Both the position numbers and the translations under genes were made by a program. Source: Caprella mutica (lineage: Eukaryota; Arthropoda; Malacostraca; Amphipoda; Caprellidae). Taken from it: a stretch of 64,000 nt of DNA. This document shows, piece by piece, positions 2,243 to 61,665 of the stretch; positions within the stretch are counted from its first letter, which is position 1; each line of letters begins with the position of its first letter. The stretch is from assembly GCA_947561585.1 (NCBI GenBank), contig CANNZV010000432.1, forward strand, positions 248,001-312,000. Direction: 5' to 3'. The notes under the pieces were generated by a model. It was not told the origin of the DNA. It worked only from the letters and a program-made list of their open reading frames with translations, and searched no databases.

Positions 2243-2260
2243 TGATAGTAGATTAAAAAG

Positions 2261-8085: not shown

Positions 8086-8089
8086 TATT

Positions 8090-11000: not shown

Positions 11001-11378
11001 AAGAGATTCGCAAGATATGTATCACGAAGAATCAACATAATAACAACCTTGTTGCCATCCACATCTTGGAGATACGTTTCTACTAAAAAAAACCCTGCAG
11101 ATATAGCATCCCGTCCTCATTCACCACAATCACTCCTAGATTCATGTTGGCTAATCGGCCCAGGTTTTCTTCACACTGATGACGAGTACGATATGATTGA
11201 GGTAGAATCAGCTTTAGACGATTTGGAACTCCCAGAAGTCGTCGAGAACAATGTCGTTACTTTTACAAGCAAAGTAGAATCCTGTTCTGTATTCTATTCT
11301 CTTTTCCTTATATCTAATAACTGGTTATTTATCTTAAATGTTGCTCGCAAAGTAATTATGTTTGCATTCTATTGGTGA
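8090..11378 (+). pseudogene. Pao/BEL gag end, protease, RT and RNase H
   Basis: The frame runs from the LINE junction; the ATG at 8115 lies inside the gag domain and is not a start. Numbering from 8115, Cys/His zinc clusters sit at about 119-183. The DUF1758-type aspartic protease has D264 in AIIDEQSN. RT shows KTRIVFDSTA and YVDD at 685-688 in NNFYVDDAHG. RNase H has D876 in VFSDASEE, plus an RLELCAA helix and YTDSMVVLGYL. TGA at 11376-11378 ends the frame, but the same phase continues into integrase, so it is a nonsense mutation or a short replaced stretch. The last roughly 30 residues are unusually hydrophobic for this linker. Confidence 0.92.
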
Positions 11379-12240
11379 GATACTGTTAGTCAGGGTTTAG
11401 GTATTCCATTGGCTTTACGACCTATCCCAAATTTCCGTTATATATTGAATATCCTAATCCATGATGCCCAATTGCACAGTTATTATAGTCTCTTTTCTCC
11501 TCAGGGAGAACTCAGCTTGCCAAAGTCACATCATTTGCACACTTTCAGCATTTTTCTCACAGATGAGGGCGTCATTAGAGTGGGAGGACGCATACAAAAT
11601 GCAGAAGTTTCTTACGACGAGAAACACCCTTACCTTATTCCCCACGATCATCCCTTGGCCACGGTAATTGTGCTCCATTATCACTCGCTAACGAAACATC
11701 AAGGAAGACACGTGACTATGGGAGCTATACGAATCAACGGTTTCTACATTGAAAAAGGAAAGAAAATAGTTCAAAGGATCATAGGTCAGTGCGTCATCTG
11801 TAGAAAACTTAGATCAAAATTAGGTGTACAGAAGATGGCAAATCTCCCTACAGACCGCCTTGAAGAATCACCTCCATTTACGAACACAGGCATCGATGTG
11901 TTTGGACCTTATTTGATAACTGATGGCAAGTCCACAAAAAGAGCCAACTCCTCTAAGAAATCCTGGGTCCTACTATTTACTTGTCTTGTATCTAGAGGAA
12001 TTCATCTGGAACCTCTCCCTAGCATGGATACTTCATCATTTGTAAATGCACTCCGACGCTTCTTTTCAATCAGGGGAGTCTGCAAGTGTCTGCGGAGTGA
12101 CAGAGGTACGAACTTCGTTGGTGCCCTCAATCAGGGTGCTACCTTGACAGAGATTGAGAGGGAAGTTACTTCTCATGACTGCAAGTGGATAATGAACCCT
12201 CCTCATTCGAGCCATAGCCCATATGGGTGGACCATGGGAA
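11379..12240 (+). pseudogene. Pao/BEL integrase, zinc domain and core
   Basis: It continues in phase after the TGA. The H2C2 zinc region contains HYHSLTKHQGR and CVICRKLRS. The core has the first two catalytic Asp residues in TGIDVFGPY and RSDRGTNF. Near 12225 the NPP...SH motif is followed by a frame change, so the third acidic residue region lies in another frame. The apparent frame to 12392 past that point is out-of-phase translation. Confidence 0.88.
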
Positions 12241-12546
12241 AGAAAAATTGGCCAAGTGCGGAGAATTTTAGACACAACTTACCTGAAAATTCGGGATCAT
12301 GCCTTGTCACGCGACGAATTCTCCACGCTCCTAGCAGAGTCGGCCGCCATTGTGAACAATACTCCTCTAACAGCCATCTCAGCAAGCCCTGAAGAACTAA
12401 TCCCAATCAGTCCTGCTAAGCTTCTGACTTTAAAAGATCAACCGAATCCCCAATCCATCGCCAACGTGACCGAGTCAGATATCTCGGTCACGTTGTCAGA
12501 TATCATTCATGAACTTGTTCTATTAATTGAAATTGAAAATCAATAG
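12223..12546 (+). pseudogene. Pao/BEL integrase, C-terminal remnant
   Basis: The +1 frame picks up the integrase core with GGPWERKIGQVRR, then the helical region through VNNTPLT and ISPAKLLTLKDQPNP, a typical BEL landmark. Family similarity stops at about 12465 at a hairpin (12462-12495); the last 25 or so residues are unrelated. The usual C-terminal domain that follows LLTLKDQ in BEL elements is missing. Confidence 0.85.
12462..12495. repeat. 13-bp perfect inverted repeat, 8-nt loop
   Basis: CAACGTGACCGAG at 12462-12474 is the exact reverse complement of 12483-12495. The loop and the following bases also repeat TCAGATATC directly. It sits exactly where integrase similarity ends, and looks like a template-switch or quasipalindrome scar. 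Confidence 0.85.
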
Positions 12547-32008: not shown

Positions 32009-32359
32009 GGTATGGAGTGAATTTGATAATTGTTATCAAATTTATGACTGACTGTACCTGAATGCTGAATCCAATGTTTATACCTAGTAACCTACTAGTA
32101 GTACCTAGTTACCTACTAGTTAGGTAGCTACCCAGACTGCAAAATGTGTCTCTTCTCCTGCAGAGATTTTAATTTGAGAGTTACTCTCTAGTCTCTGACT
32201 CTCAGCAGCAGATTCAGAATCTCCTGCAGGCTGCAGCTAAATTAATGCCGTTACTTAGGAATTAATTCAAAATCACCCGCAGCAGGCTAGCAGCGGCAGC
32301 GCAGCTCAATTAATGGTAACATAGGAATCAAATTCAATTCATGAATCATGATCTCCTCC

Positions 32360-32575
32360 CCAGTCTGCAGAATGAGTCTCTTCTCCTGCAGAGATTTTAA
32401 TTTGAGAGACAGTTACTCTCTGACTCTCGGTAGCAGATTCAGAATCTCCCGCAGCTAAATTAATGGTAACATAGGAATTAATTCAAGATCTCCCGCAGAG
32501 ATCTCAAATTTCTAAAATTCAATCAAAAACTCCCGCAGAGAGTCTTGGAAAAATGTTCCATATTCTGCAGACTGG
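32360..32575. mobile_element. CCAGTCTG-family MITE, CTCCTGCAGAG arms
   Basis: Ends are CCAGTCTGCAGAATG and ATTCTGCAGACTGG. Flanks are TCTCCTCC / TCTCCCGC (6 of 8 match). The arms repeat TCTCCNGCAGAG; the core TTAATGGTAACATAGGAATT is at about 32459-32478. Confidence 0.75.
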
Positions 32576-32623
32576 TCTCCCGCAGAGATCTCCAATTTCT
32601 AAAATTCATTCAAAAGCTCCTGC

Positions 32624-33091
32624 CCAAGTAATAAAGCATGTCCAAACTCGCCATTTTAATGGCGAGTTTGTGACAGTTATTTTGAGCCCTTCAATTGCAA
32701 ATGGCTAGTTTTATCTATTTTTCTCCTCCAAGTAAAATAGTATGTCTCCTAAACTCACCATTTGTCTCTCCAGCTCTCTCCAAAACTCAACAATTTCTCT
32801 CCAAATTCCAATATGATCAAATTATCATTAATTCTCTCCAAAAAAACATTGTAGCATAGAAGAAAAATAGATAAAACTCGCCATTTGCAATTGAAGAGCT
32901 CAAAATAACTGTCACAAACTCGCCATTAAAGTGGCGAGTTTGGACATGTTTTATTACTTGGTTTCTCCTATGCTACAATGTTATTTTGGAGAGAATTTAT
33001 GAAAATTTGATCATTTTGGAGAGAATTTGTTGAATTTTGGAGAGAGCTGGGAGACAAATGGCGAGTTTATGAGACATACTATTTTACTTGG
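32624..33091. mobile_element. CCAAGTAA-family MITE with interleaved inverted repeats
   Basis: Ends are CCAAGTAA and TTACTTGG, with an exact 8-bp target duplication GCTCCTGC (32616-32623, 33092-33099). Internally it has order A-B-A'-B': A is about 32624-32735, B about 32736-32860, A' about 32863-32960, B' about 32961-33091, where primes are reverse complements. A related element lies at 45586-45819. Confidence 0.85.
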
Positions 33092-33216
33092 GCTCCTGCA
33101 GAGAGTCTTGGAATAAATGTTCCAACTTCCATTATCCATACCATATTCATGATGTTCCATGTTTCAAAGTGTGGCAGGAAAGTCGCCAGTTTAGTGAGAA
33201 AATGGATCCAGGTCGC

Positions 33217-33361
33217 CCAGTCTGAAAAGTACAGCAGGATTTGTGGATTAATCCTGCGCTCAAGTCCTATTTAATTCCTATGTTCCCATGTTATTAGCTG
33301 CGCCCAAATCCCAATTTTTGTAAAAAATCCTGGGTCTGAGGAGACCTTCTTTTCAGACTGG
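33217..33361. mobile_element. CCAGTCTG-family MITE, 145 bp
   Basis: Ends are CCAGTCTGAAAAG and CTTTTCAGACTGG, with exact 8-bp duplication CAGGTCGC (33209-33216, 33362-33369). The core is the TTCCTATGTTCCCATGTTAT variant. The arms (CAGGATTTG / AATCCTG) differ from those of the other copies. Confidence 0.92.
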
Positions 33362-33448
33362 CAGGTCGCCACATTTAATGATTTAAAATACTTTATAGAT
33401 GAAATTTGACTTCCTAGTGAAGATTTTACAATTGAAAATATCCTCATG

Positions 33449-33686
33449 CCAGTCTGTATTTCATGGTAAATTCCACCGACATGTCGGTGGAATTTTTCCC
33501 CTTTAAAAATAATATTCTGACTAAGTCGGTGGATTTTTAGCTATTTATTCCTATGTTACCATTAATTTTCGGTGGATGAATTGGGAAAATGTTGGTGGAT
33601 CAGCCAAATTACTGGAAATTTATGGTGGATTTTTTCATCTTTTTGAAAAAGTCAGTGGGATTTTGTGTGCACCAAATACAGACTGG
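33449..33686. mobile_element. CCAGTCTG-family MITE, GGTGGATTTT arms
   Basis: Ends are CCAGTCTGTATTT and AAATACAGACTGG, with exact 8-bp duplication TCCTCATG (33441-33448, 33687-33694). The core is TTCCTATGTTACCATTAAT. The arms hold at least five copies of a TCGGTGGA-like word. The 62-codon open frame at 33576 is incidental. Confidence 0.95.
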
Positions 33687-33913
33687 TCCTCATGGAGTCA
33701 TGCTTCATGTCTGATGCATGTGCATCTTTTGAGACTATTTTATGAGTGGTTTACTTGTTTTTAAACTTATTTCACCCCTCAAAAGTCACCAATATACTGG
33801 CGACTTTGTCCATACTTTGAAACATGGGAGGTCGCCACATTTAAGATACTTTAAAGGAGAAATTTGACTCTCTTGTGAAGATTTTACACTTGGTCCTTGG
33901 AAACATCATTCAG

Positions 33914-34160
33914 CCAGTCTACAAAACATGCACAATCAGTCTACAGATATTTATTTTTGGGGGCAATTTTTTCTCAAGAGATTTTCAAATTTCTCTCTAA
34001 AATGGCTAAAAATCTTGTAATTCTCTCCACTAATTACATGTAAACATAAGAATTAATTAGAAAATTGTCGCCTGATAATTCAGGAGACCAATTTCAAAGC
34101 CTCAATAGTCGCCGGATAAACTTCACAACTTCATGCATCTTTTACAGTCTTATAGACTGG
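33914..34160. mobile_element. CCAGTCTA-type MITE
   Basis: Ends are CCAGTCTACAAAA and TATAGACTGG; flanks TCATTCAG / TCATTATG match 6 of 8. The core variant is AATTACATGTAAACATAAGAATTAAT; the arms carry TCTCTNNAAA and GTCGCC words. Confidence 0.7.
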
Positions 34161-34302
34161 TCATTATGCTTCATTTCTGATGCATGTGCATCTCTTGAGA
34201 TTATTTTGGGGTTGAAATACTAGTTATTTAAATGTTTTTCAACTTATTTCAACCCCTCAAAAGTCACTAATATTATTTATAGTATATACTGGCGACTTTG
34301 TC

Positions 34303-34538
34303 CCAGTCTGTATTTTGTGGTAAATTCCACCAACATGTCAGTGGAATTTATACCCTTTGAAAATATTATTCTGGCAAAGTCGGTAGATTTTTAGCTATTT
34401 ATTCCTATGTTACCATTAATTATTGATGGGTAAATTGGAAAAATGTTGGTGGATCAGCAAAATTACTGGAAATTCTTTGTGGATTTTTACAGCTTTTTGA
34501 AAAAGTCAGTGGAATTTGGTGCACTAAATACAGACTGG
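34303..34538. mobile_element. CCAGTCTG-family MITE, GGTGGATTTT arms
   Basis: Same subfamily as 33449-33686 (about 236 bp), with exact 8-bp duplication ACTTTGTC (34295-34302, 34539-34546). Confidence 0.95.
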
Positions 34539-34744
34539 ACTTTGTCCATACTTTAAAATATCATAATATGGTCCATATTCTGCAGACTGGGTAGCTATTC
34601 TCTTTTTGGAATAGAAAATATAATTTATCATAAACTGTAATAATTATAATTTTATGAGGTAACTATTGTTATATGTAAACTTTCAGTCTTAAGGTTAGAT
34701 ATAATTAAAAACTTATCAGTTAGGTACATGTATGTATGATGATT

Positions 34745-35029
34745 CCAGACTGCAGAAACGGGTAAACTGTTCTCGAAGAAATCCTCTATTTTGGCTTTTG
34801 TTCTCGGTAAAATACTTGTAAATATCCAGTCTGCAGAACGAGACATTTTTAATATTTTCTGTGTGAACTAACATTAATTTCCTCTTATATTTATATATAT
34901 TTTACTGAGAACAGAACCAAAGATGGAGGTTTTCTTGGAGAACACTTTATTAGTTCCTGCAGTCTGGGTAAATATAAGTGAAAATTAAGGATTGCTCACA
35001 CAGAAAATGTCACGTATTCTCCAAACTGG
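34745..35029. mobile_element. CCAGACTG-type MITE interrupted by 34826-34977
   Basis: Ends are CCAGACTGCAG and CAAACTGG; flanks TGATGATT / TGATGATG match 7 of 8. The arms carry TTCTCNAAGAAATCCTCTATTTTGGC-like sequence. A copy of the same family is inserted inside it. Confidence 0.75.
34826..34977. mobile_element. CCAGTCTG-family MITE nested in a relative
   Basis: 152 bp, with exact 8-bp duplication GTAAATAT (34818-34825, 34978-34985). Ends are CCAGTCTGCAGAA and TTCCTGCAGTCTGG. Confidence 0.9.
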
Positions 35030-35034
35030 TGATG

Positions 35035-35130
35035 ATGTATCGGGGGTGTGTGGCGTTCTGCCCCCCGAACCTCCCTGCGGCTGCCGGTTCATTGAACAAT
35101 CATGATGTGTGCAGAACAACAAACTAGCAT
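35035..35130 (-). mobile_element. Fragment of a GAGCCCC-type MITE core
   Basis: Contains CCCCGAACCTCCCTGC, TTGAACAATCATGA, GTGTGCAG and AACAAACTAGC, matching the reverse complement of the 28.3-kb core. The terminal arrays are absent. Confidence 0.65.
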
Positions 35131-35131
35131 A

Positions 35132-35400
35132 CCAGTCTGTATTTCCTGGTAAATTCCACCGACATGTGGGTGAAATTTTTTCCCTTTGAAAATAATATTC
35201 TGGCAAAGTTGGTGGATTTATAGCTATTTATTCCTATGTTACCATTAATTTTCGGTGGATAAATTGGGATAAAGTTGGTGGATCAGCCAAATTACTAGAA
35301 ATTTATGGTGGATTTTTTCAAAAGTTCCCAGTCTGCAGAACATGGGACATTTTTAACATTTTATAAATATACCATGAAATACAGACCATGAAATACAGAC
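35132..35400. mobile_element. Mosaic of CCAGTCTG-family MITEs
   Basis: It starts as the GGTGGATTTT subfamily (35132-35335), then passes into a CCCAGTCTGCAGAACATGGG segment and two tandem ACCATGAAATACAG segments. The right border is unclear. Confidence 0.55.
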
Positions 35401-35521
35401 CATTGATAGAAAGTACAGTTGTGCGCTGTATTTCATGTTTCACGAGGCTGGAAAATTGTAAGCTAATTTTTGAGCCAAAATTTCACAAATTCTGAGCCAA
35501 GGCAATTTGGTTCATTCTTTG

Positions 35522-35679
35522 CTAGACTGTAGGAACTGGTAAAGTGTTCTCCAAGAAATCCTCTATTTTGACTTCTATTCTCAGTAGAATACATGTAAAT
35601 ATTATTAATAAAATATAAGAGGAAATTAAGAATTGTTCGCACAGAAAATGTTAAAAATGTCCAATGTTCTGCAGACTGG
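35522..35679. mobile_element. CAGTCTGCAG-family MITE, diverged
   Basis: Arms with TGTTCTCCAAGAAATCCTC and core AAGAGGAAATTAAGAA; it ends TTCTGCAGACTGG. The left end is degenerate (CTAGACTGTAGG). Confidence 0.6.
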
Positions 35680-35937
35680 ATTTTTTGAAGATTTCAAGAT
35701 AAAAATTAACATTAGACATACCTGAGTTTTAACCTTTTGAAATCTAAGCCAATTAATTGGCTTTAATGGTCATGCTCTGTAACATGGGCTGTATTGCGAG
35801 TGGGACATTTGTAACATTTTCTGAGGGAACAATCCTTAATTTCCTCCTGTATTTCACCAGTTCCTGCAGTCTGGCTGCAGCCTGTATTGTAGTGCACCGT
35901 AATGTGATGCGCCACTCTGCTTTTAGATACTGTTGCG

Positions 35938-36450
35938 TTCATATGTGGTTACCACTTACCATACGGCTCACACCCGCATTCCGGTGTCACAGGTCTATTT
36001 GGCCTCAAACTTTTTCATTTGAGCAGCTATGAAGTTTAAACTTATACAATGTTTGAACTATACTAATACCGATAATATAAAGTGAAAATATCGTCAATTA
36101 TTTGAAATTTGAATTCGTAATATGCAACACAAACTTTAAAAATGGAAACAACCCCCCCCCCCTCCCTTCTACCAGGTCATTGAACAATCATGAAGTTGAC
36201 ATAACAGAACCATAGTGGGTCAAAAATCTACATAGCAAAATTATAAAAGCTGTAAATGCTAGTCAGCATACGACCTTTATTAATTCCAATTTCAATTAAT
36301 TGTTTATGTTTTCACAGGATATTATAGGTATTGATATATTTCAAACATTGTATAAGTTTAAACTTAATAGCTGTCCAAATAATAAAGGTTAGAAGCCAAA
36401 TGTACCTGTGAGTTGTGACACCCGAATGCAGGTGTGAGAACCACATAGGA
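35938..36450. repeat. Large inverted repeat with a MITE fragment in the loop
   Basis: Arms of about 115 bp at 35938-36060 and 36335-36450 pair along ATGTGGTT, CACCCGCATTCCGGTGTCAC, ATTTGGC and AAGTTTAAACTTATACAATG. The loop holds a fragment of the GAGCCCC-type core (36140-36200). No transposase is seen. Confidence 0.82.
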
Positions 36451-36479
36451 GAGAAATTTGAAAGATTTGTTCCCAAATA

Positions 36480-36830
36480 ACATAAAGTTCTCTCAATTAT
36501 GGGAGTAAAATTTGTTACTGGAAGTAATTTTATTTATTTAATACCCTTTATTTTGAAAGCTAACAAGGTATGGGGAACTCAGATTGTATTTGGTGATAAA
36601 TTCCAATGGTATGTTGCCAGATATTATATTTCTCAAATAAAAAAATTCCTGCAATGTCGGAGGATATTTAACTATCGATTCCTATATTACCATTAATTTT
36701 TGGAAGGAAAACTGGAAAAAAGTCAGAGGACTAGACAAAGTCACAAATTGAGGAAAAATGTTGGCAGATATTTCACAGATTTTTGAAAAAGTCAAGAGTT
36801 CAGTGCATCAAATACAAACTGATGGGGAAC
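36480..36830. mobile_element. Diverged GGTGGATTTT-type MITE
   Basis: Contains AGATTGTATTTGGTGATAAATTCC, the core variant TTCCTATATTACCATTAAT, then GTTGGCAGAT and CATCAAATACAAACTG, a decayed relative of 33449-33686. Confidence 0.55.
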
Positions 36831-36887
36831 CTACCAATTGTTTCTGGAGATGAGAACTATTTACGGTAAACCTACCTTTTAAGGTTA

Positions 36888-36925
36888 CTATTCAGTAAAT
36901 AGACGCCCCACTAGTGACTAGTCAG
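36888..36925. mobile_element. Left terminus of a GTCGGAC-type MITE
   Basis: GGTTACTATTCAGTA followed by GACGCCCCACTAGTGACTAG matches the end of the element at 63424-63868. The rest is missing. Confidence 0.5.
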
Positions 36926-37181
36926 ACACTTTAATACGTATCTAAAAGCTGAGTGGCGCACCACTGTACATTCTATCAAATAGGTAATTTGAATGAAGAT
37001 TATGGGAGCAAGTAAAGGTGACAGACCAGGTTTCGTTACCTTTACTATTTCAAATTCTGGTCCGTTATGTTTACTAGCTTCAATTCTGGTTCATAGTCTT
37101 TACTTGGTTAAATTATTAATATTTGACCAATAATTGGGATAAGAACCTAATTTTGGAATCATAGATACCACATTAAAGGAT

Positions 37182-38217
37182 TTAAGGGCACCGTTCCCAG
37201 ATTTTAAAAGTTTTTTATTATTGAAGCTATGGTTGTAAAACTTTGTACACATTTATAAAATGAATTCTAAGATGTTTTTGTGTCCTGACATTTTTTTGAT
37301 TCGACCCATAGAAAATGAGTTATTCGAATTTCGAACAGTGTGTAAATTAATAAATGGATACGACAATTTTGTAGCTATGACATTATGGTTTTTGCATTCG
37401 ATTCTCCACAAGATTCTCTACTATCTGTGGAAGCATTTTTTTTATTTTTCTAATTGGTTTTCGAATTATGAAATTTTTTTAGTGAAACAAAAAAAATTGA
37501 AAAAATATAAATTTCAAAATTCAATATTTTGAAAAATAATTCGAAAATTTAATAAAACTCTTCCAGAGTTTGTAGAGAATTCCGGGGAGAATTGAATGCA
37601 AAAAAACGCAAAGCTGTAGCTTCTACCAAGAAAAGGCCTTAGGCTTTTGAATTACATGATTTGTAGACATCTGAAGTAACGAGTAATCTCCCAAAATTTG
37701 ATAATCTGGCACACAGCATACTACTCTCGTGAAGGTCTGCGGGTAACTGAGGAATATTTCTTTGTAAACCTTAGTGGGGGTGTTATTAGTGGTAGGTTAG
37801 ATACCAGATATAGAGAGATAATTAATTATTACGAATTATAATTGGCTGAGAGATGGTTTTTAGAGTACATATCGACTCCCTACCCCGGCCCTCTTTTCCC
37901 TTTCTCCCTCTCCCCAGGGGGGTTAGAGTTACATGATACCTCTGGTATTTTGCACACACTATATGAAGGTTATAAAGCAAATATTTACACTAAAAAAAAA
38001 TGATAAAATTTAGAGATTTCTTCAGGGAGATTTAGAGATTTCTTCCTTAAGCAGAAAATTTTTTCCATTTTCAAAATGGATCATGTTTTTTTATCAATTC
38101 TTTCAATCAATGAATAAGCAAAATAAATGTATAATCATTAATATTATCATTTATAAGGTTGTATTTTTATTAAATACTAAATCAAATTTTTTTAAATCTA
38201 AAAAATGTGTTCTAGTC
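37182..38217. mobile_element. TTAA-type MITE remnant
   Basis: It starts TTAAGGGCACCGTTCCCAG and is collinear with the reverse complement of 46621-46977 for several hundred bases (shared AGAAAATGAGTTATTCGAATTTCG, quoted here only as a position marker around 37307-37335). An internal hairpin spans about 37389-37605. No right terminus is visible. The 90-codon frame at 37260 is incidental. Confidence 0.55.
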
Positions 38218-38219
38218 AG

Positions 38220-38710
38220 TTAAGGGGACCGTCTTGAGTTTTTTGCAATTTCTACCGATTTTCTTTTTTCTTTAGTTCCCCAGTAAACATTCCAAAGAAA
38301 ACGTACAAAAAAAATTATTTTGCTGTGACAACTAGAAGTCAGTGTAGAGGAGGTTGAATAATGGAAGGGGTGAAATTAGGATTGTGTTTTTTTGACTTTT
38401 TTTTAGCTACTTCATTATCTCTGTTCCTTTTTACTCAAATCATACTTGTGCCAAGTGTATGGACTCAATGGGGGTTGATCCTACAGAAAAATTTATAGAA
38501 GCTAATATGCTTAGCTCGAAATAACCTAGATTGTCCAATGAGCTTTTTTTAATTTTGATATTTTTTTTAGACGAAAAAAACAACTTTAAAAAAATTCAAA
38601 ACGAAAAAAAAAAGTTAAATATATTTTTTATTTTTTATAAAACACTTATAAAAAAAAGAACCCAAAATTTAACTGGAAGATGCAACTGTTGGACTATTGG
38701 GGTGTCTCCC
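38220..38710. mobile_element. TTAA-type MITE, left end
   Basis: TTAAGGGGACCGTCTTGAG is the end sequence of the element at 51480-52279. The right part runs into TTGGACTATTGGGGTGTC, a GTCGGAC-type terminus near 38690. Bases 38711-39015 hold no gene. Confidence 0.45.
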
Positions 38711-39015
38711 CTTTGTAACTCATTAAATATACCTAGGTATTTAAAATTCTTGTACTGATATTATATTATGAAACTAACAAGTTATTAACTTATTATTGAA
38801 GAGAATCTCACTCTGGTTTAAGCATGGGATTCCTATGTGTGAAATGTTAGCTAAACATATAGCTAAGTACATTTTATAGTTAACTTTGGATTTTTTTTTC
38901 TGTTCAACTTTGTTTAAAACTTTTGTGGAGTATAAGTAACTAACTAGATGAACCAGTGCAAAATTATTATGACAATTTGAGGATAAAGATTTGTCAGGGG
39001 GAAGCAGTCATATGT

Positions 39016-39255
39016 CTCATCCCAGACTGTATTTCATGGTAAATTCCATTGACTTCTCTCCACTTACAATAATATTCTATCCTATCAAAGTCTGTGGATT
39101 TTTAGCTGATTATCCTATGTTACCATTAATTTTTGGTGGCTAAATAGGAAAATGTTTGTGGATACTGGATCAGCCAAATATGTTGGTGGATTTTTTTTTT
39201 AGCTTTCTGAGCATCAGAGCAAGTTGGTGGATATTGGTGCACCAAATGCAGACTG
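39016..39255. mobile_element. CCAGACTG-type MITE, GGTGGATTTT arms
   Basis: It starts CCCAGACTGTATTTCATGG, has core CCTATGTTACCATTAAT and ends CCAAATGCAGACTGG. No target duplication is recognisable. Confidence 0.7.
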
Positions 39256-39315
39256 GCTGTCAGCAATTATGGATGTTACTAGACTTCTCATCCTTTATAT
39301 CACCTTTATTCTGTT

Positions 39316-39550
39316 CCAGTCTGCAAAAGATGCATGAAGTTGTGAAGTTTACCTGGCGACTATTGAGGCCTTGAATTAGTCTCCTGAAATATCCGGGAAA
39401 AAATTCCCAATTAATTCCTATGTTTGTGTTATTATTGGAGAATATTTTGAGATTTTTGCCTATTTTGGAATGTAATTTGAAAATCATTGGAGACGAATTG
39501 CCCCAAAAATTAAATGTCTGGGGATTGATTGTGCATGCTTTGCAGTCTGG
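39316..39550. mobile_element. CCAGTCTG-family MITE, GGAGA/CCGG arms
   Basis: Ends are CCAGTCTGCAAAAGATGCATG and GCTTTGCAGTCTGG; exact 8-bp duplication ATTCTGTT (39308-39315, 39551-39558). A relative lies at 46381-46598. Open frames of 72-106 codons here are incidental. Confidence 0.92.
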
Positions 39551-39600
39551 ATTCTGTTCACACACATCTTGTACATTCATTCTTCATAAGTCATTATTCT

Positions 39601-40720
39601 CAGGGTTGGTTAGGGGAAACCTCAAGGAGGTTTTTTTAGTTTCCCCCAGGGGAATCTGGGGGAAACCTTGGCTGTCTGTTAATGATAAATTCAAGTTTAC
39701 ATATTGACCATTAACATGTATTACAGTAGCTAAATGTCAAATGAATCATTGAGTCTAATGATCAATAAATGCATAATATGATAATATGTTGGTATAACTA
39801 CTTCTAATTAATTTATTCATCAATTAAAAATCATAATTGCCAAAATTATATTATTTAAATATCTATAATGAATGATGATTAATATAGGTAGTAATCATCA
39901 TTTCATTCCCATCATCCCATGACATGTGCAATGTTAACTTTAAGGTTACAAGGTATTGTAATTTTTATGGAACCACTTCAGACTCCAGAGAACCAGAGTG
40001 CTCAATACTCAGTGACAAGTCGTAATTAAGCTTGCTAGTTACCACTGCAAGTTATATAATTGGCTATATTAAGATAATAGAACTATTTACTGAAAGGAAG
40101 AATGTAGTACCAAATATAAAAGTTTAGTTTTGTCATATTTATCTACAGTGAACAATAAAAAAAATTACAAATATTTAATATCAGTATATTTGATATTATT
40201 ATCCCTTAGTTATCACAGTTTCTCACCAAGAAGTTATTATAAATCAAAGGAGCACACAGACATTGTAAAGGAGCACACAGACATTGTAAAGGAGCACACA
40301 GACATTGTAAAGGAGCACACAGACATTGTAAAGGAGCACACAGACATTGTAAAGGAGCACACAGACATTGTAAAGGAGCACACAGACATTGTAAAGGAGC
40401 ACACAGACATTGTAAAGGAGCACACAGACATTGTAAAGGAGCACACAGACATTGTAAAGGAGCACACAGACATTGTAAAGGAGCACACAGACATTGTAAA
40501 GGAGCACACAGACATTGTAAAGGAGCACACAGACATTGTAAAGGAGCACACAGACATTGTAAAGGAGCACACAGACATCGTAAAGCCCTTGGATAAGTAA
40601 TAAGTATAGCTAATTTAGGTTTCCCCCAGTTTCCCCCAATTTTTCAGTTTCCCCCAAATGTTTTTTTCAGTTTCCCCCATGTTTCCCCCATTTTGGGGGA
40701 AACCTACCTTGCCAACCCTT
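39601..40720. mobile_element. hAT-like non-autonomous element
   Basis: It begins CAGGGTTGG and ends CCAACCCTT, with exact 8-bp duplication ATTATTCT (39593-39600, 40721-40728). CAGGG-type ends and 8-bp duplications fit hAT. Subterminal regions carry GTTTCCCCC / GGGGGAAAC words in both orientations. The interior contains the 16-copy minisatellite. There is no transposase. Confidence 0.88.
40247..40582 (+). repeat. 21-bp minisatellite, 16 copies
   Basis: Sixteen 21-bp units, nearly identical (the last has one C for T), that read KEHTDIV in one frame and are open on both strands because the unit length is a multiple of three. The 156-codon plus-strand frame and the 108-113-codon minus-strand frames that cover it are consequences of the repeat; there is no sign of a gene. 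Confidence 0.95.
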
Positions 40721-40849
40721 ATTATTCTTTCATGGTTGTTTCTGTAATTTGCATGTGGACTGGAACTTAAGTCACTCATTAAGTTTGAGGTCAATTCATT
40801 AATAATTAGTCTAAGCCCGTAAAGTAGTATCAATTATATATTATTAAAT

Positions 40850-40964
40850 TAAATTAATGGTTACATAGGAATTAATTAAAAATCTCCTGCAGAGATGAAA
40901 AATTCTGAAATTGGTCTCAGATTTGTTTGAGTCTTGGAAAAATGTTCTATATTCTGCAGTCTAG
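40850..40964. mobile_element. Truncated CTCCTGCAGAG-arm MITE
   Basis: Contains core AATTAATGGTTACATAGGAA, TCTCCTGCAGAGAT, GTCTTGGAAAAATGTTC and the end ATTCTGCAGTCTAG, like 32360-32575. The left half is missing. Bases 40965-42290 hold no supportable gene; the 98-codon frame at 41007 has no recognised domain. Confidence 0.65.
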
Positions 40965-42330
40965 ACCTATATCATATCAAATGAGTTGCAATATTATGAT
41001 CTATGATTGATGTGCCAATGGCAAGCATGGCATTATGAGATCTATCAATATTGCAGATTGGCCAAAAGAGCACAAAGAATATTAATCATGCTTTTTGTAT
41101 ATTGCATGTTCTACAGTTCTTCTTTTGAAATAGTTTTTGAAGTATATTTTCTCTTAATTTACATGTGTTATAACTATCACCACTCCGAAGCTTTTTTCCT
41201 AAATGTCTTGTTAAAAAATAGTCTCTTTCACATGAAACTAAAGGTCTGTGCACAAAGTATTGACAGAAAGCATATTGTTCTCAGTACATATTTCATAATT
41301 TGATGAATTGTTCATGAAAGAAAAGTGTCTCTCTCTGTTTTTTAAATGTAAGCCTATATTATCCTAATTAGCTTTTTCTCCTCAAAAATTGTGAGAATAA
41401 TATCTCCAATGAATAAAGCACAGTTAACTAAATTATTTCCTAGTGTTTCAAAGTGTAGACAACAAATTCAGCTGAAGAAATTGAGGAAAATATCTTGTAT
41501 TGACTGGAGGAATAAAATGAGTTTTATAATATTAAAATAAATATTCAAGCACAATGATGTTTTTAAGTGGCAAAAAAGTTCCCTTTTGATCCTCCCTCTT
41601 CATCTATTTAATTTATCTTTAATATATAGTTACCTGGGAAAGGGTTTTGTTTCCAGCTAACTTGTAGGCAAATTATTTTCTTGCTCTGCTGGTGTGTTGG
41701 TGACATGATTTGCATTATTACATTCTTAGCTCTGTATACACTTGATGCAAAAAGTGTGTGATTCTGAATCACTAATTTAAAAACAAGGGACAGATTTGCA
41801 ATAATGTAACTTTTTGTCTCCTTGAGTTTTGGAGTATGGTATCATTTATTGCGTGATGCTGCACTTCCAGAAACTGATTATGATGCAATCCTGCACTTGT
41901 ATCAAATAGTAAAGTAAATTCCATGTTTCTTGAAGCATTGGTTCCATTTTCTATATCAATAGGAAATGTATCTCCAGTATAAAATAAAATGTAGATGGGG
42001 TATATGAAGAAACAGATCCATTTTTGTAAAAACTTCTCCCAAGGGTCTTAAGAACAGGGATAAAGAAATGTAGACTATTTCGTGCATTTTATTTATGAGT
42101 GTCAGTTATGTTACATATATTCATCAGTGTAAATTGGCAACAAATTATTTGTTAAACATGTCTCATTGAAGAGTAGATAAGCCTTTACTTTGGATAATTT
42201 TCTAATTTGCTTTTCTATTCATTCATAAATTAATATCCTAGAAGATATTTTCTTAATTTCCCTATTTTATATTTAATTCTTAGTTTTCAGATTTTTTCAT
42301 AGTTATCACTCACACATTAATAAAGCAAAG

Positions 42331-43253
42331 ATGCAAAACGAAGCCGGAGAATATGTTGATTTGTACATCCCCAGGAAGTGCTCCACTTCCAACAGGATTA
42401 TTCATGCCAAGGACCACGCCTCTATTCAGATCAACCTTGCTGAGGTGTGTTACTAGAAGATTTATTGCTTTTTATCAGAAGTACTCTTTTTATCCTAATC
42501 ATTGCAGCTGTTCTTGGAATGATTTTCAAATCCTGGCTGTCAATTTTTTTTGTGTTCCTTGAATCCTTAAAGTAATGAACAATTAGGATTGAAATCATAA
42601 ACTATATTTTATTATTTATCATACTATTTGTCCAATATATTAATTGATTAATATATAGGTATGAACTACTGTTTATTTATAAAATTATTTTATGACAGGT
42701 TGACGAGAAGACCGGCATCATGACCATGTCCTACACAACCTACGCTATCTGTGGGAAAATCAGGAAAATGGTAAATAATAATTCTGAACATGTGACTATT
42801 TTTCCGTTAGAAACGTAAAGATAAAAATCCTCTAATTAAGAGGTGATAATTTTCTGTGGTGCGATGATTAAATTATTCACTCTATATAATTTAGATTAAA
42901 TTAAGCAATAGTGGCAAAACTATGAGCTATTCAGTTTGCTGATTAATGAGTGAATTATGATGATTATGGGTCGTACAATAATCAGCTTTGCCATTAATTA
43001 TATTAATTTTAGTTCAAACTGGAAATTCTATTGATAATTAATTATGAAGAAAAACTCCACCTATAGAATAATTAGAAAACAAGTAGTTAAATCTTATAGG
43101 ATTTCATTTCAATACACTAATGTAATTTAATTGTTTGTGATTTGTTAGTTTTTCCATAGCAATTAATGATTGGTCTCTTTTTTTCAGGGTGAAGGTGATG
43201 ACTGCATTTCCAGACTTGCCATCAAAGATAATATCCTCGTGAAGCATGATTAA
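42331..43253 (+). CDS. RpS21: 40S ribosomal protein S21, copy 1
   Basis: RpS21 is an 83-residue small-subunit protein, and this copy encodes 83 residues in three coding exons: 42331-42444, 42699-42770 and 43188-43253 (stop TAA). All four splice sites are GT-AG and both introns are phase 0. Landmarks are the start [18 protein letters not shown], the [13 protein letters not shown] block and [17 protein letters not shown]. It differs from copy 2 by K instead of E at residue 58 and K instead of R at residue 75. A 3' splice site (TTTTCAG, 42300) just upstream shows that the 5' UTR is spliced; the matching leader is probably about 31.5 kb, making a first intron of about 10.8 kb. AATAAA follows at 43365. 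It could be an expressed paralogue or one beginning to decay. Confidence 0.95.
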
Positions 43254-43364
43254 AGCCTTCAGTCTTTCATGAAAAAGATTTTCATTTGATATCCCATGAA
43301 ATTATCACTCTTGATCACTCGCTATATTTTAATTTTAGTGTTGACTTTTCATACCTATTGATGA

Positions 43365-43370
43365 AATAAA
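43365..43370 (+). terminator. Polyadenylation signal, RpS21 copy 1
   Basis: AATAAA 112 bp after the stop codon, in a stretch not conserved after copy 2. Bases 43400-44300 hold no gene; 43376-43560 is collinear with about 49330-49520. Confidence 0.65.
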
Positions 43371-44639
43371 GCTTATAAAAAAGCATGTTTAAATCATGAA
43401 ATACATGTGTAAATTGGTAAAATTAATATGCAAATAGAAAATGGTTCTTCAAATAAGTTTATGATATTCAAATGATAAACTTCTACATAATTCAGACGAT
43501 TGAATATGAGCTAGATTTGGTGTTTCTATTTCATAAATTTAAATTTATTATAGGCTAGATTTTAACTGGTTTGTGACATTGCGTATGCATGTATGCAAAA
43601 ATAAAAATGAATGTGCAAATGATGAAAAGGAAAATTAAAAGTGTATATGTAAAATTAATTGCCCTAATGAAAATGAAAGAAGTACAGTACAGGCCTCTCT
43701 TTAAGTACAACTCACTTCAATAAAAAGGTGTACTTATTTCAAGTCATGGTAAGGATATGGAAATGTCATGGCATGTCTTGTCTTAAATTATAAACGAGGA
43801 TGATTTCAAGTTTCGAGAATAATTATGATATATTTGTGTGATTTCATTCGAACACCTACATAAAGATATTTCAATAATACCAACCAAACTTTCCTATTGC
43901 TATAGTTCAGGCTTACTAGTACTTCCATAAGTTCTGGTAAATAATTATTTGCAATTATTTATTTGACTTTTTAACATTCTTATACTTATTTGATATTAAG
44001 TGACCAAAACGAAATAGTGAAAATATCTTAATTATTACTGGAGAACGCAAATCAATAATTACAATTAATTTTAATAGAAATGTAAAGCTAATCGTAAAAC
44101 AGTAAAATTTAATGCCACCATCATTCTATATTCAAAGATAATTCAGTAATTGGTATCTTGATATAAATTTATTGGCATCTTTTCTCAATACTACGAGAAG
44201 GTGGAGCTTATCCTATGCAACGGTGTCGTATCTTAAAACTTTGACTGAAAACTCCACGGTTTTTGCTTCAAAAATATAAAATGACCTCGTTAATTCTTTC
44301 CCTGATAATACATTGTAGTATATTATAAGTTTATATTCCGTATGTATTTTGTGTTGTCATTATTTATATAAAATCTGTTATCAAAACAAGTTTCTGACCC
44401 AATTGCTTTTAATATCCTAATATGAATAATAAAATCGATGGTTATTGTAGTTACCGCGAAATAGACTCCACTAAAAATGTTAAAAGGCTCACATAGTTTA
44501 AAAATACGATTAAAGTGCGATAGAAATCACAAATAAAATAGAAAATAAAGTGAACTTTTTTTTACATGTTCCAGTTTATCATAAATACTCCTACAATTAA
44601 TTATTGTATTCTGATTTCGATTTTTATCTACAGAACGTT

Positions 44640-44717
44640 TGAAGGAACCATTAGCCAGTTCTCTCTCCTCTGTTTGTAAACATTGCTCCTATTATAAATT
44701 GAAATTATCTGTGCAAA
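44640..44717 (+). promoter_or_regulatory. Probable RpS21 promoter and 5' leader exon, copy 2
   Basis: A pyrimidine-rich stretch (CAGTTCTCTCTCCTCTG) followed by TTTGTAAACATTGC and a good donor, AAA|GTGAGT at 44718. The acceptor TTTTTCAG ends at 47069, giving a leader intron of about 2352 bp. The transcription start is inferred only from the pyrimidine tract typical of ribosomal protein genes. Confidence 0.5.
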
Positions 44718-45123
44718 GTGAGTGTGCTCTGTGAATTTATTATTCATTTGTTATTGGTGAATTTCAATTGATCCGTAGTTATATACCTTTGAATGTATAG
44801 CTGCATTATTACCTCATGGATGTGGATTATGTTGCTAATCTGGCGTAATTTGTTTCGAGTTGGGTAGATCAGCGGCCTGAATGTCGTACCTACCTGAGTT
44901 GCCGTAATACCAGTGTTATCTTTTATTTCTACCTAAGTGTTGTCTATACTTTTTCAATATTTTCTGATGAGTTGACAATATTTTGAGTGATTTACTTGTT
45001 ATTTTGTATTTACAGGTTTATCAACTTATTTCAACCCTCAAAATTTGCCAATATACGGTTACCTATAGCTACCTATACCAAATACAAATACTATGAAACG
45101 TGGGGTATTTGGTGTACCAAAAC

Positions 45124-45284
45124 CCCAGTCTGCAGAAACTGATGAAGTGTTTGTAGAGAACTCTTAGGTATTCTGTTCGTAGCAAAATTAATGTAAATAG
45201 AAAATAGGCCTAACTATAAGAATTAATTAAAATTTGTTTGGAGAGAATATCCCAAATAGGTATCTCCAATATTCAGCAGACTGG
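45124..45284. mobile_element. CCAGTCTG-family MITE
   Basis: 161 bp; ends CCAGTCTGCAGAAACTG and ATTCAGCAGACTGG; flanks CCAAAACC / TCAAAACC match 7 of 8. Arms resemble 34745-35029. It lies in the first intron of RpS21 copy 2. Confidence 0.85.
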
Positions 45285-45299
45285 TCAAAACCCACAGGC

Positions 45300-45543
45300 T
45301 TAATCATAAAGCTGAAAAAATCTACCAACATGCCCATGGCAACATATTAGGCTGAAGCTGCTGGTCCACCAACAATTTCCCCATTTTGAATTAAGGTAGC
45401 CACCAAAATTTAAAATTAATGGTAACATAAGAATAAATAGCTAAAAATCCAGACTTTGCTAGAATATTAAAATTATTTTCATAGGGGGAAAATCCCACCG
45501 ACAATTGGTGGATCAGTGGAATTTACCATGAAGTACAGTCTGG
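45300..45543. mobile_element. GGTGGATTTT-arm MITE, reverse orientation, left end degraded
   Basis: Contains AATTAATGGTAACATAAGAAT, GATTTTT-complement words and the end TACCATGAAGTACAGTCTGG. It is the reverse of the 33449 subfamily. Confidence 0.65.
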
Positions 45544-45585
45544 TAGAGAATATCCCGAATTTCTCCTAAATTTCTAGAGTGCAGT

Positions 45586-45819
45586 CCAAGTAATATAGGT
45601 AGTATAATTTATATACTCTCCATCTCTCTCCTAAAATTACTAAATTTCTCCAAAATGATCAAATTATCGTAAATTCTCTCCAAAATAACATTGTAATTTG
45701 TAGCATAGGTGAAAAATCAGAAAGTTAGATAATTCTCACCATTTGCAATTGAAGGGCTCTAAATAACTGTCACAAACTCGCCATTAAAATGTCGAGTTTG
45801 GACATACTTTATTACCTGG
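45586..45819. mobile_element. CCAAGTAA-family MITE
   Basis: It starts CCAAGTAATATAGGTAG and ends TTTATTACCTGG; interior with CTCTCCAAAA words and AACTCGCCATTAAAATG. A relative of 32624-33091, but shorter and with unclear target duplication. Confidence 0.7.
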
Positions 45820-46380
45820 TCTTCAGTGTGCACTGTGTCAAATATGTCTCCAAACATTTTGAAATCTCAAATAACCAAAATGTCACCAATAATTACATAT
45901 AAAATCTAGGAATTAATTAGAAAATTGTCTCAAAGATCTTGCAAAGATAATTTTCCCCTCAAAATGTCTCCAAAGATCTTCGACAACAAGGACGTGATCT
46001 GCAGACTGGAATTAAAGCCCTAATTAACCAGTCGGCATAATATAGGAGATATTGGGGATAGGATAGGTATACTGTATCTCTTAAGAAAAATTTAGAATTA
46101 GGTAATTCCTGTATTTTATACTGAATTCTTGACTTTTCTGAAAGTTAAATATCCTCAAGCATTTTCTCTCATTTTGGCTAGTCCTCCCAACATTTTTCCA
46201 ATTTCTCCTTCAAAATTAAAGATAATATAGGGATAAATAGCTAAAAGTCCTCAGACATGTCAGGAATCTGAATTTACCATCAAATACAATCTGATATATT
46301 TACATAATTTAGCAATTAGCTACAATCACTTGCAATAATCCCTATATTTACATTAATTTTACTGTGAACAGAGAGAGATT

Positions 46381-46598
46381 CTAGTCTGCAAAAAGATGGG
46401 TGAAGTTTATCCGGTGGCTGTTCAGTCCTGAAATTTGTGTCCTGAATTATCCGGTGACAATTCTCTAATTAATTCCTTTGTTTACATGTAATTATTGGTG
46501 AGTTTTTTGGCCATTTTGGAAAAAATTTATTCTTTGGAGATCAATTGCCCCAAAAAATAAATATCTGGAGATTTGATTGTGCATGCTTTGCAGACTGG
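46381..46598. mobile_element. CTAGTCTG-type MITE
   Basis: Arms match 39316-39550 (AAAAGATG, TATCCGGTGG, CCTGAATTATCCGG, TGTGCATGCTTTGCAGACTGG). A shorter decayed piece with GATCTGCAGACTGG lies at about 45860-46016. Confidence 0.7.
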
Positions 46599-47109: not shown

Positions 47110-48035
47110 ATGCAAAACGAAGCTGGAGAATATGTTGATTTGTACATCCCCAGGAAGTGCTCCACTTCCAACAGGATTATTCACGCCAAGGACCATGCCT
47201 CTATTCAGATCAACCTTGCTGAGGTGTGTTATTAGAAGATTTATTGCTTTTTATCAGAAGTACTCTTTTTATCCTAATCATTACAGCAGCTGTTCTTGAG
47301 ATGATTTTCCATGCCTGGTTGTCAAATGTTTTCTTCATTCATATAGTAATGAACTACTGTTTATTTATATTTTTAATTACAGGTTGATGAGAAGACCGGC
47401 ATCATGACCATGTCCTACACAACCTACGCTATCTGCGGGGAAATCAGGAAAATGGTAAATAATAATTCTGAATATATAACTATTTTTACATTAAAAACAA
47501 AGATCTAGTTCATGTAATTAAGAGGTGTTATGCTATGTTCTCTGTTATGCTATGATTATGTTATTCACGCGATGCATAATTTAGATAAAATTAAACTATA
47601 GTGGCTATGGTTAACTGTGCAGTTAGCAGACTAATGAGTGAATTGTGATGGTTATGGCTAGAATAATAATCTGCTTTGCTCCTAAATTATCATTAAACAT
47701 GAGGAACGAAATTTATATTTCATTAATCTCCTAATTCTTTAAATTGGAAATTCTATCAATAATTAATTATGAAGAGAATCTGTAGCTACCATATAAATAA
47801 TTAGAAAACAAATAGATTCAGTCTTGTCGTGTAAAACCCTCAATGAGTTTTAACCAACTTTTGTGAATCGCTCAGCTAATTAATTTTAATTATATAATTT
47901 AATCATAGTTATTATACTCGAGATTTTCCTAGTATTTCCTTGCAACTAAGTATTGCTCTCTTTTTTCAGGGTGAAGGTGATGACTGCATTTCCAGACTTG
48001 CCATCAGAGATAATATCCTCGTGAAGCATGATTAA
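47110..48035 (+). CDS. RpS21: 40S ribosomal protein S21, copy 2
   Basis: Three coding exons, 47110-47223, 47383-47454 and 47970-48035, with GT-AG phase-0 introns at the same positions as copy 1, encode 83 residues. The family-typical ICGEIRKM (E58) and R75 are present, so this is the more conserved copy. The 5' UTR is spliced (acceptor ending 47069) and the leader is likely at 44.6-44.7 kb. Similarity to copy 1 continues only about 45 bp past the stop; an extra segment (about 48085-49330) then separates the gene from sequence that follows copy 1 directly. The nearest AATAAA I see is near 49144. RpS21 sits on the small subunit and takes part in late 18S rRNA maturation. Confidence 0.96.
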
Positions 48036-60674: not shown

Positions 60675-61665
60675 ATGTCAGACAAAAGAGAAGCCATTAT
60701 TGCTCTACACCGTGCCGGGAAGTCAGATTCCGTCATTTCAAAGACTCTCTCAATAGCGAGATCGACTGTTTGGAAGTGTGTGAAGCGTTTTAATGAGAGA
60801 GAGGAGACTTGACTGATCGTCCAAGAAGTGGTAGACCACGCTCACAACGCACCAAACAACTGATAAAATGTGCCCGAGAGAAGATCAGGAGGAACCCGAA
60901 AAGGTCAATACGATTGTTAGCCAAAACAGCTAATGTGAGTCCCAGAACAAAGAGAAGAGTTGTCAAAGAAGACCTAAAGATGTCCTCTTTCACCCTCCAA
61001 AAGAGACAGACTCTGTCAGAAGCTGTAAAGAAAAAGAGATTGGAGAGAAGCAAAGTACTTCTGAGAGAATTGAAGTCTGGCATGGCTGGTGAAATTGTTT
61101 GGTCTGACGAAAAAAATTTCACAGTGGAAATGGCTCACAACCGGAGGAATGACAGAATAATTGGTAAAAGTGCAAAAGACATCCCATACAACCAAAAAAC
61201 TGTCCACAGAACCATGAAACCTGCTTCAGTAATGGTCTGGGCCGCCGTTTCAGAAACTTGGAGATCTCCTTTAATTTTTGTGGAACAAGGCGTCAAAATC
61301 AATGCTAAATGTTATATTGAGAATATTTTGACGCCAATGTTGGAGTCAGCTAAGGATCACTTCGGTAATGACACTCTATGGACATTTCAGCAAGACGGCG
61401 CGACTTCACATACTGCAAATGTTTTTTATTTTTTATGTTTTTTTTTGTTTTGTATTTTTTTTGTTTTGGTCTTTTTTTGTATTATTAGTTTTATCTGTGT
61501 CTTTTTTTTTTTTTAATTTATGTTTATTTTTTTTTTGTTTTTTATTGTTGTTGAGAGAGGATAAGCAGTGGTATCAACGCAGAGTACTCAGAGATCTTGG
61601 AAGGAAATTTCACAAGAACAGTTGCGTGCCGCAGTAGGAGGAGATTTGAGGCTGTTATCAAAAAC
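60675..61665 (+). pseudogene. Tc1/mariner transposase, broken
   Basis: ATG at 60675 starts an HTH region (MSDKREAIIALHRAGKS, then SIARSTVWKCVKRF). A one-base shift near 60800 moves the frame, which resumes with TDRPRSGRPRSQRT (numbered from 60809). The first catalytic Asp is D100 in IVWSDEKNF and the second D196 in FQQDGATSH. After HTAN (61423) coding is replaced by T-rich sequence and an adapter; C-terminal coding (KEISQEQLRAAV) resumes after 61590. The third catalytic acidic residue region is therefore absent from the assembled sequence. Confidence 0.9.
61424..61590. other. T-rich run plus SMART cDNA adapter (probable artefact)
   Basis: Bases 61424-61550 are an almost pure T-run with scattered other bases. 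Bases 61563-61587 match all 25 nt of the commercial SMART cDNA primer, beginning AAGCAGTGGTATCAACGCAG. The block interrupts the mariner transposase exactly between two recognisable coding parts. A natural origin of a perfect 25-nt match is very unlikely. Confidence 0.9.

Follow-up and report, generated by a model that had tools for sequence, protein, structure and literature searches.

How can mobile elements remain alike at their ends and in their centre when the sequence between differs from one group of copies to the next? The question is raised by a 64,000-nucleotide stretch of the amphipod Caprella mutica (assembly GCA_947561585.1, contig CANNZV010000432.1, the forward strand of contig 432 from 248001 to 312000), hereafter the window, which carries a dense cluster of short elements with common ends, a common central core and seemingly unrelated arms between them. 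A sequence-only reading had described them as modular miniature inverted-repeat transposable elements (MITEs) and proposed that their arms were either swapped or shaped by selection for symmetry or hairpin form. The analysis presented here finds one scaffold with a shared core, in which each family carries a different short word at like positions. This arrangement is unusual; the ends, the target duplications and the subterminal words are ordinary. Neither the like positions of the words nor the presence of the core in elements with other ends had been part of the earlier description.

The window elements are a real and very abundant MITE-like group. The CCAGTCTG ends match 19 times in the window against 0.85 expected, a number reached in none of 100 shuffles, and the core TTCCTATGTTACCATTAAT has nine matches at up to three mismatches against 0.07 expected, which confirms the common ends and core. 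The five target duplications reported then, at 33217, 33449, 34303, 39316 and nested at 34826, are all exact over 8 bp. When the window was scanned blind for the combination of an exact 8-bp duplication with a 10-bp end repeat of at least eight matches, 13 places came up, some of them by chance, against 0–2 in each of ten simulated windows. The scan added exact duplications for 36579–36822, for a CCAAGTAA-ended element at 32624–33091 and for a CCATGTTTC-type element at 35433–35787; a nested CCAAGTAA element at 32728–32961 also has one, though a complexity filter removed it from the scan. Across the window elements, nine duplications are exact, three match at 7/8, two at 6/8, and that of 39022–39256 at 5/8. 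Families of 144–266 bp with end repeats, 8-bp duplications and thousands of genome-wide end pairs have the properties of MITEs, and within 31–47 kb of the window there is no open frame of at least 150 amino acids besides a simple repeat at 40094–40600. The earlier observation thus holds for ends, core and duplications, but needs correction on arms and words.

Genome-wide counts, taken over 903,207,152 bases in 7,200 contigs, likewise show that ends and core are not chance motifs. The 19-base core at up to two mismatches has 24,756 matches (12,295 + 12,461) against 55 (33 + 22) for a reversed control, and 3,420 places have exact CCAGTCTG ends paired at a distance of 216–245 bp, against 0 in the control. 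Core counts overstate the number of elements because many elements have two cores. Core matches are often paired 44 bp apart (at L010, L013, L028 and other loci), in copies of family B with a tandem-duplicated word–core unit. By eye, from 80 bases at each end, the first 50 listed end-pairs fall into the lettered families set out below as 27 A, 17 C, 2 B and 2 C4-like, with one chimera and one GC-rich non-member; since the core lies outside the 80 bases, this list is no test of it. The GC-rich stretch (G000, contig C1:3732615-3732841) probably has its paired CCAGTCTG ends by chance, and contig 1 looks bacterial in composition, possibly a symbiont or contaminant contig. The core had no match in the viral contigs scanned.

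The 40 stretches (202,040 bases) fetched around core matches, to which the window copies were added, yielded eight families that bear the core; their ends are of three kinds. Pairing of ends with a duplication in the fetched bases gave 154 pairs, some overlapping, of which 67 have CCAG-type ends; clusters F4 (composites of B ends), F8 (family H), F9, F10 and F11 and 16 single elements were excluded from the family comparison. Consensus lengths are 238 bp for A (n = 21 copies) and C (6), 227 for X (12), 225 for K (9), 144 for D (14) and 145 for E (4). The B consensus of 260 bp (14 copies) is 216 bp plus a 44-bp tandem duplication, and that of G (179 bp, 4 copies) includes one of 43 bp. Copies within one family are not independent, and the unit of evidence is therefore the eight families.

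The core is not tied to one kind of end. Families X (ends CCAAGTAATA) and K (CCATGTTTC-type ends) carry both the core and the word positions despite their other ends. With a model built without X, the cores of two window copies, X1 and X2, score 14.5 and 10.7, against −0.4 and −0.9 (standard deviation 3.3) in shuffled elements; the core of a third, X3, which has a short insertion, does not rise above its shuffles (0.2, P 0.50). In the fetched DNA no recognisable core was found in the 266-bp family H (CCATGTTTC ends) or the 257-bp F9 (CCAGACTGGA ends), so having such ends does not by itself imply a core. Within A the core is conserved better than any other stretch, at 0.922 where the arms stand at 0.699, none of 170 blocks being as high. 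Its conservation is not exceptional within C or X, and constraint on the core is consequently best shown by its sharing between families.

The positions of the words were obtained from a self-repeat profile computed without naming any word, its peaks giving the word starts. The core begins at offset 98–100 in the long families and at 58 in the short ones. In the long forms, the repeated word lies 35–39 and 76–80 bp from the left end. Core-flanking words are 43–45 bp apart. The A word GTCGGTGGA starts at 35 and 78, with a GGAGGA form right of the core; the B word CTGCGGGAG at 38, 78 and 122; the C word TCTGGCGAC near 37 and 78, with a GGAGAG form at 122; and the X word AATGGCGAG at 35 and 77, with a GGAGAG form at 120. 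K has ATTGGCTTA at 35 and 76 and TTTGGCTTG at 120. E has CTGCGCCCA at 38 and 82, G has CTCCGAACA at 38 and CTACGAACA at 83, and D has GTGCGAACA at 38 and a GAGAACA form at 82, both weak (scores of at most 8.1 against 12–19 elsewhere).

These positions agree far beyond chance in the left arm. The left-arm profiles of A, B, C and X correlate pairwise at r 0.82–0.92, with a mean of 0.874 against 0.002 (standard deviation 0.209) for shifted profiles, none of 2,000 being as high. K, noticed only through its core, reaches 0.79 when compared with the mean of these four, a value equalled only by shifts 1–4 of 77; this uses nine copies extended to full length, an earlier consensus without the first 7 bases having given r = −0.15. 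Single copies, with words taken at up to one mismatch, show the same spacing: the modal distance between core-flanking words is 44 bp in B (44/50), G (9/9), D (12/16), K (5/7), E (5/8) and C (3/5), 43 in X (17/18) and 45 in A (7/10).

The words of a family also change together. Left and right core-flanking words agree at 7.38 of 9 within their own family against 5.43 with other families, 13 of 40,320 pairings being as good, with the right window of K placed one base nearer the core by hand; leaving K out gives 7.29 against 5.52 (13 of 5,040). First and second words agree at 8.80 within families against 5.85 between them (1 of 120 pairings as good). Control windows in the arms show no own-family match (24/24 and 4,954/5,040 pairings as good). 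Among 312 core-like sites, 155 with at least one unclear word were set aside; words of the same family flank the core at 156 of the other 157, against 34.3 expected if the sides were independent, the scored words having been derived from the same data. In the C-related copy C4, both left-arm words have changed alike relative to C1–C3, as read from the alignment. In G+C phase next to the core, none of 5,000 random offsets is as good, but the windows were chosen after looking, and this is not main evidence.

Element by element, the earlier claim that each group repeats its own word on both sides of the core stands only in part. With a composition-aware score, adopted in place of an 8-mer repeat finder biased to A+T-rich words, and 60 shuffles for each of 12 elements, the total two-side score is significant for A1, A2, B2, D3 and E1 and the best single segment for X1, but sharing is not significant for A5, C1–C3, D1 and D2. 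The D3 score, 40.6, is below its mean of 49.3 with the arms of other groups. In the element at 33217 (E1), the strongest same-strand repeat is CTGCGCCCA at 38 and 82; AGGATTT recurs too, partly inverted.

The explanation that fits best, and which is considered somewhat more probable than otherwise, is that these are hAT-like, non-autonomous cut-and-paste families with 8-bp duplications, built on one scaffold, in which the word follows transposase specificity. The core-bearing families share this scaffold, which runs terminal repeat, word, in some families a second word, core and word, at conserved positions. The data show that each family repeats its own 8–10 bp word there, and that families differ by joint change of the word at these positions and not by exchange of whole arms. 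The word is most likely a transposase-binding site. Each family would have a transposase of its own, whose DNA-binding domain recognises the word, and the word array would track the specificity of that enzyme. Ends, spacing and core may be held by the common geometry of the transposition complex, of which the core and the 44-bp spacing would form part. Unequal exchange between core-flanking words could have produced the tandem word–core duplications of 44 bp in B and 43 bp in G. Known hAT transposases recognise short words that are repeated close to the element ends and that differ between elements (PMC3143072, PMC3260210 and PMC4890040).

If so, such a chassis of end geometry, core and fixed sites, carrying eight words, might be read as a fossil record of transposase specificity switching, with the core as a predicted third essential site shared across end types; this wider reading is offered tentatively, at somewhat less than an even chance. 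Joint change in a transposase and several of its sites is hard to account for, since intermediate forms ought to move poorly. Sister families with the same positions and core but different words provide a natural series for testing such change.

A number of results weigh against this explanation. Right-arm profiles are uncorrelated (0.041, P 0.30), and the three short left arms correlate less well (0.31–0.73, a figure given without a null). In A, C and X, the words on the two sides of the core are not the same, and the right-hand words of C and X match their own family (6, 6) no better than each other (7, 7). In the diverged clade of A (A4, A7), the words are incoherent, at 0.48 among themselves against 0.49 to the other clade, and concerted change between the two clades of A was rejected as unsupported. 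Sampling was centred on core-bearing loci. The 67 CCAG-ended elements comprise 31 with a core at 0–1 mismatches, 17 at 2–5 and 19 at six or more; to these 19 belong family D and families that have no core, F9 among them. hAT elements prefer targets of the form nTnnnnAn. The duplications here lack it: 8 of 78, a few of which may be copies of one locus, have T at position 2 and A at position 7, against 8.5 expected, and the only preference is for C/G at positions 1 and 8. Finally, at least 57 hAT-domain places were listed (150 of 297 candidates scored), and in none of the four fetched, with flanks of about 0.4–2 kb, do family ends flank the open frame.

The hAT assignment, proposed earlier from the duplications, is consequently only possible: the 8-bp duplications of that superfamily are present, but its target preference is absent and the hAT places fetched show no flanking family ends. 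Short words near both ends, another hAT character, are clear in A, B, E and the family averages and weak in D and single C copies. Two of the four hAT-domain places have one CCATGTTTC motif inside a transposase-like open frame. Open frames for hAT-derived proteins of 597, 347 and 600 amino acids were seen at L049, L050 and L052, with no family ends in the fetched stretch; they resemble ZBED-type genes. The mobilising enzyme might instead belong to another superfamily with 8-bp duplications, such as P, a question separate from the mechanism. The lack of nTnnnnAn would fit this, as would the CCAGTCTG ends, which do not conform to the hAT end consensus. P-element MITEs also have 8-bp duplications (PMC1562414), but PMC4890040 counts short subterminal words at both ends among the features that define hAT. 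On balance, an origin outside hAT is somewhat unlikely.

Whether the arms are unrelated, as the sequence-only reading held, bears on a simpler explanation. Its arm groups coincide with the BLAST groups, and alignment of arms between groups is near chance for the window copies (168 arm pairs, mean z 0.36, standard deviation 1.08); beyond about 8 bp from the core, flank alignment is only weak. Profiles and consensuses contradict simple unrelatedness for several pairs. Against 200 targets each with shuffled arms but retained ends and core, the C profile aligns with B2 over its full length at 24.0 bits (shuffled targets average 7.3 and peak at 20.3) and matches X1 at 12.4 bits (P 0.010) and X3 at 7.1 bits (P 0.005). 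The X profile finds C1 and C3 (P 0.005 each) and C2 (P 0.04), and D and B2 have their left 42 bp in common (15.0 bits against a null maximum of 14.8). Family G, from the fetched DNA, links D and B. The C profile does not match E1 (P 0.19). Clustering at 60% identity over 60% of length, a single-linkage method prone to chaining, puts B, C, D and X in one set of 51, A in another of 23 and E apart (4). Judged on these matches, families B, C, D and X are related to one another, with A too distant for alignment to tell; ‘unrelated’ was too strong. Repeat position here reveals kinship that alignment misses, and when MITEs are clustered on overall identity, a single group can come apart into families that look unrelated.

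Such homology is what plain descent would leave, with arms of one ancestor drifting neutrally, only core and ends held, and functionless words keeping inherited positions. The strong conservation of the core within A agrees with this. However, drift should diverge words within a family as much as between families, and yet the first and second words of a family hardly differ, which calls for some homogenisation or selection. Moreover, the reverse test, with a B profile built from fragments, misses C1–C4 (P 0.16–0.56), and profiles join A to neither B nor C (P 0.045–0.17). Plain descent as the whole account is therefore unlikely. Selection for hairpin form, the other force suggested earlier, was rejected as a general rule: without the end repeats, arms fold better than chance (z about −2 or lower) in seven of 16 elements (A1, A2, B2, E1, X1–X3), but not in A4, A5, C1–C3 or D0–D3.

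Words might also be homogenised within an element by unequal exchange or gene conversion, with no change of specificity. The tandem duplications of B and G have words at their boundaries, and the near-identity of words within families would follow directly. Homogenisation fails, however, to explain fixed ends, spacing and core beside changing words, unless the words are functionless, and conversion would have to act over very short tracts, of about 9 bp. The process is compatible with words that follow transposase specificity; as an explanation in its own right it is distinctly unlikely.

Families might instead arise by exchange of arms, one of the two routes offered by the sequence-only reading; recombination or template switching would then act where core and ends are shared. 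Two chimeras do exist. In one (L037:1248-1495), a left half of family G meets a right half of family A at the core, between flanks ACCAATCA and TACGCCAG; the other (L053, C6:1219186-1219424) belongs to C except for its right end, which is that of an A element, between ACCGTCTG and CATGTTTG. C and X, too, share more in the right arm than in the left (mean local z 2.76 against 0.84, 12 pairs each). Neither chimera has a matching 8-bp duplication, as is expected of rearranged rather than mobile copies, and so neither shows transposition after exchange. Of the first 50 end-pairs listed, 49 are family elements, and 48 of these draw both arms from one family; the same holds for both words at all but one of the scorable core sites. 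Exchange of unrelated arms would not yield constant left-arm word coordinates across families. Exchange happens, but as far as the sample shows it did not found families, and as their origin it is quite improbable. What survives of the earlier interpretation is one transposon group with common ends and core, group-specific words and 8-bp duplications. Highly improbable, lastly, is a change of words to escape a host repressor or small-RNA system: turnover with kept geometry might also fit an arms race, but repeated short words near the ends are a known layout of transposase sites (PMC3143072, PMC3260210 and PMC4890040).

Within the window, the elements are tightly nested. The left part of B1, with a duplicated core, lies at 32132..32359 on the reverse strand, with its outer end CCAGACTG at 32132; beyond nested elements, its remainder gives matches at 32576-32623 and 33091-33137, both parts resting on BLAST and profile matches. 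B2 sits inside B1 (32360..32575, reverse; duplication TCTCCTCC/TCTCCCGC, 6/8), with an exact core at 32459..32477 and the word TGCGGGAGA at 32489..32497, left of the core (about 78–79 of the B consensus), and at 32445..32453, right of it (about 122–123), all on the reverse strand. The B1 remainder also contains X1 (32624..33091, forward; exact duplication GCTCCTGC), in whose core region X2 lies inverted (32728..32961, reverse; exact duplication TTTCTCCT).

E1 follows (33217..33361, forward; exact duplication CAGGTCGC), with CTGCGCTCA, a variant of the consensus word, left of the core at 33254..33262 (forward, consensus position 38) and the consensus word itself 44 bp away, right of the core, at 33298..33306 (forward, position 82). 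A1 (33449..33686, forward; exact duplication TCCTCATG) has its word at 33483..33491 (first position) and 33525..33533 (left of the core) and an exact core at 33548..33566, all forward. C1, a member of the C BLAST group, occupies 33914..34160 (reverse; duplication TCATTCAG/TCATTATG, 6/8) and A2 34303..34538 (forward; exact duplication ACTTTGTC). By eye, E1, A1, C1 and A2 appear inserted in a host repeat H at 33140-34570, with CCATGTTTC ends and GTCGCC words, to which the 266-bp family H of the fetched DNA is related.

D0 (34745..35029, reverse; duplication 7/8) is split near its centre by the inverted D1 (34826..34967, forward; exact duplication GTAAATAT). D1 in D0 and X2 in X1 are both inverted copies of the same family in the core region with exact duplications; the core could be a preferred insertion target, a possibility suggested by these two cases only. 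A3 lacks a right end (35132..35327, forward; BLAST and profile matches). The K element (35433..35787, reverse; exact duplication GCTGTATT) is split by D2 (35522..35679, reverse; duplication 7/8). A4, of the diverged A clade (36579..36822, forward), has ends TCAGATTG/TCAGTTTG and the exact duplication TGGGGAAC; A5 (39022..39256, forward) is the element with the unmatched duplication, and C2 (39316..39550, forward) has the exact duplication ATTCTGTT. A B fragment with a core lies at 40850..40962 (reverse). Further on, D3, of the D/G group (45125..45284, reverse; duplication 7/8), is inserted in A6 (45285..45543, reverse). X3 (45594..45820, reverse) is followed by C4 (45832..46009, reverse), in which both left-arm words read ATCTTTG(G)AGAC where C1 and C3 read ATC(C/A)GG(C/T)G(A/G)C, by A7 of the diverged A clade (46110..46293, reverse) and by C3 (46382..46598, forward).

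Part of this cluster lies upstream of, and part between, two intron-bearing copies of a ribosomal protein eS21 gene, seen by eye at 42331-43253 and 47110-48035; the protein is 90% identical to that of Hyalella azteca, the highest identity among the 120 matches listed, which points to the genome of an amphipod or a near relative. At 40246-40602, a tandem array of 21-bp units reads as an open frame of EHTDIVK repeats. Copia-like, non-long-terminal-repeat, BEL/Pao-like and mariner-like sequences were seen elsewhere (1-3310, 5904-7742, 8085-12392 and 60797-61516). Pfam confirms only a reverse transcriptase (5904-7742) and a Pao peptidase (8085-11378), the remaining labels being by eye, and 60797-61516 matched no Pfam family.

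Among the papers listed for CCAGTCTG in connection with transposition, none deals with this element, judged by titles and the beginnings of abstracts. Nor did any listed title on chimeric or mosaic MITEs, conserved cores or co-evolving sites describe this arrangement, though its absence from print is not claimed. Several known systems share parts of it, going by the available portions of the papers cited here. The maize Ac/Ds elements Ds1 and Ds-l4 are similarly non-autonomous, with short shared ends, 8-bp duplications and different interiors, and have some transposase-binding hexamers (AAACGG) in common (PMC3260210). The Ds classes are, however, tied to the word of one transposase, whereas here each family has its own word, placed at fixed coordinates about a core common to all. 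The P-element MITEs of Anopheles gambiae also combine 8-bp duplications and related ends with interiors that have no significant identity, and one family has the ends of two masters (PMC1562414); a shared core and position-matched words, present here, are not described for them in that text.

Galileo, of the P superfamily in Drosophila mojavensis, likewise has subfamilies and chimeric copies with non-matching flanks (PMC3573991). Its end repeats are long and internally repeated, with exchange among copies, whereas exchange is rare in the present sample and the core-bearing elements measure 144–260 bp. Herves, Tgf2 and other hAT elements have a repeated short subterminal motif that is bound by the transposase (PMC3143072, PMC4890040), as is proposed for the words here. 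The available accounts describe neither a fixed word position across those elements nor a shared core; in the C. mutica families, both features occur together.

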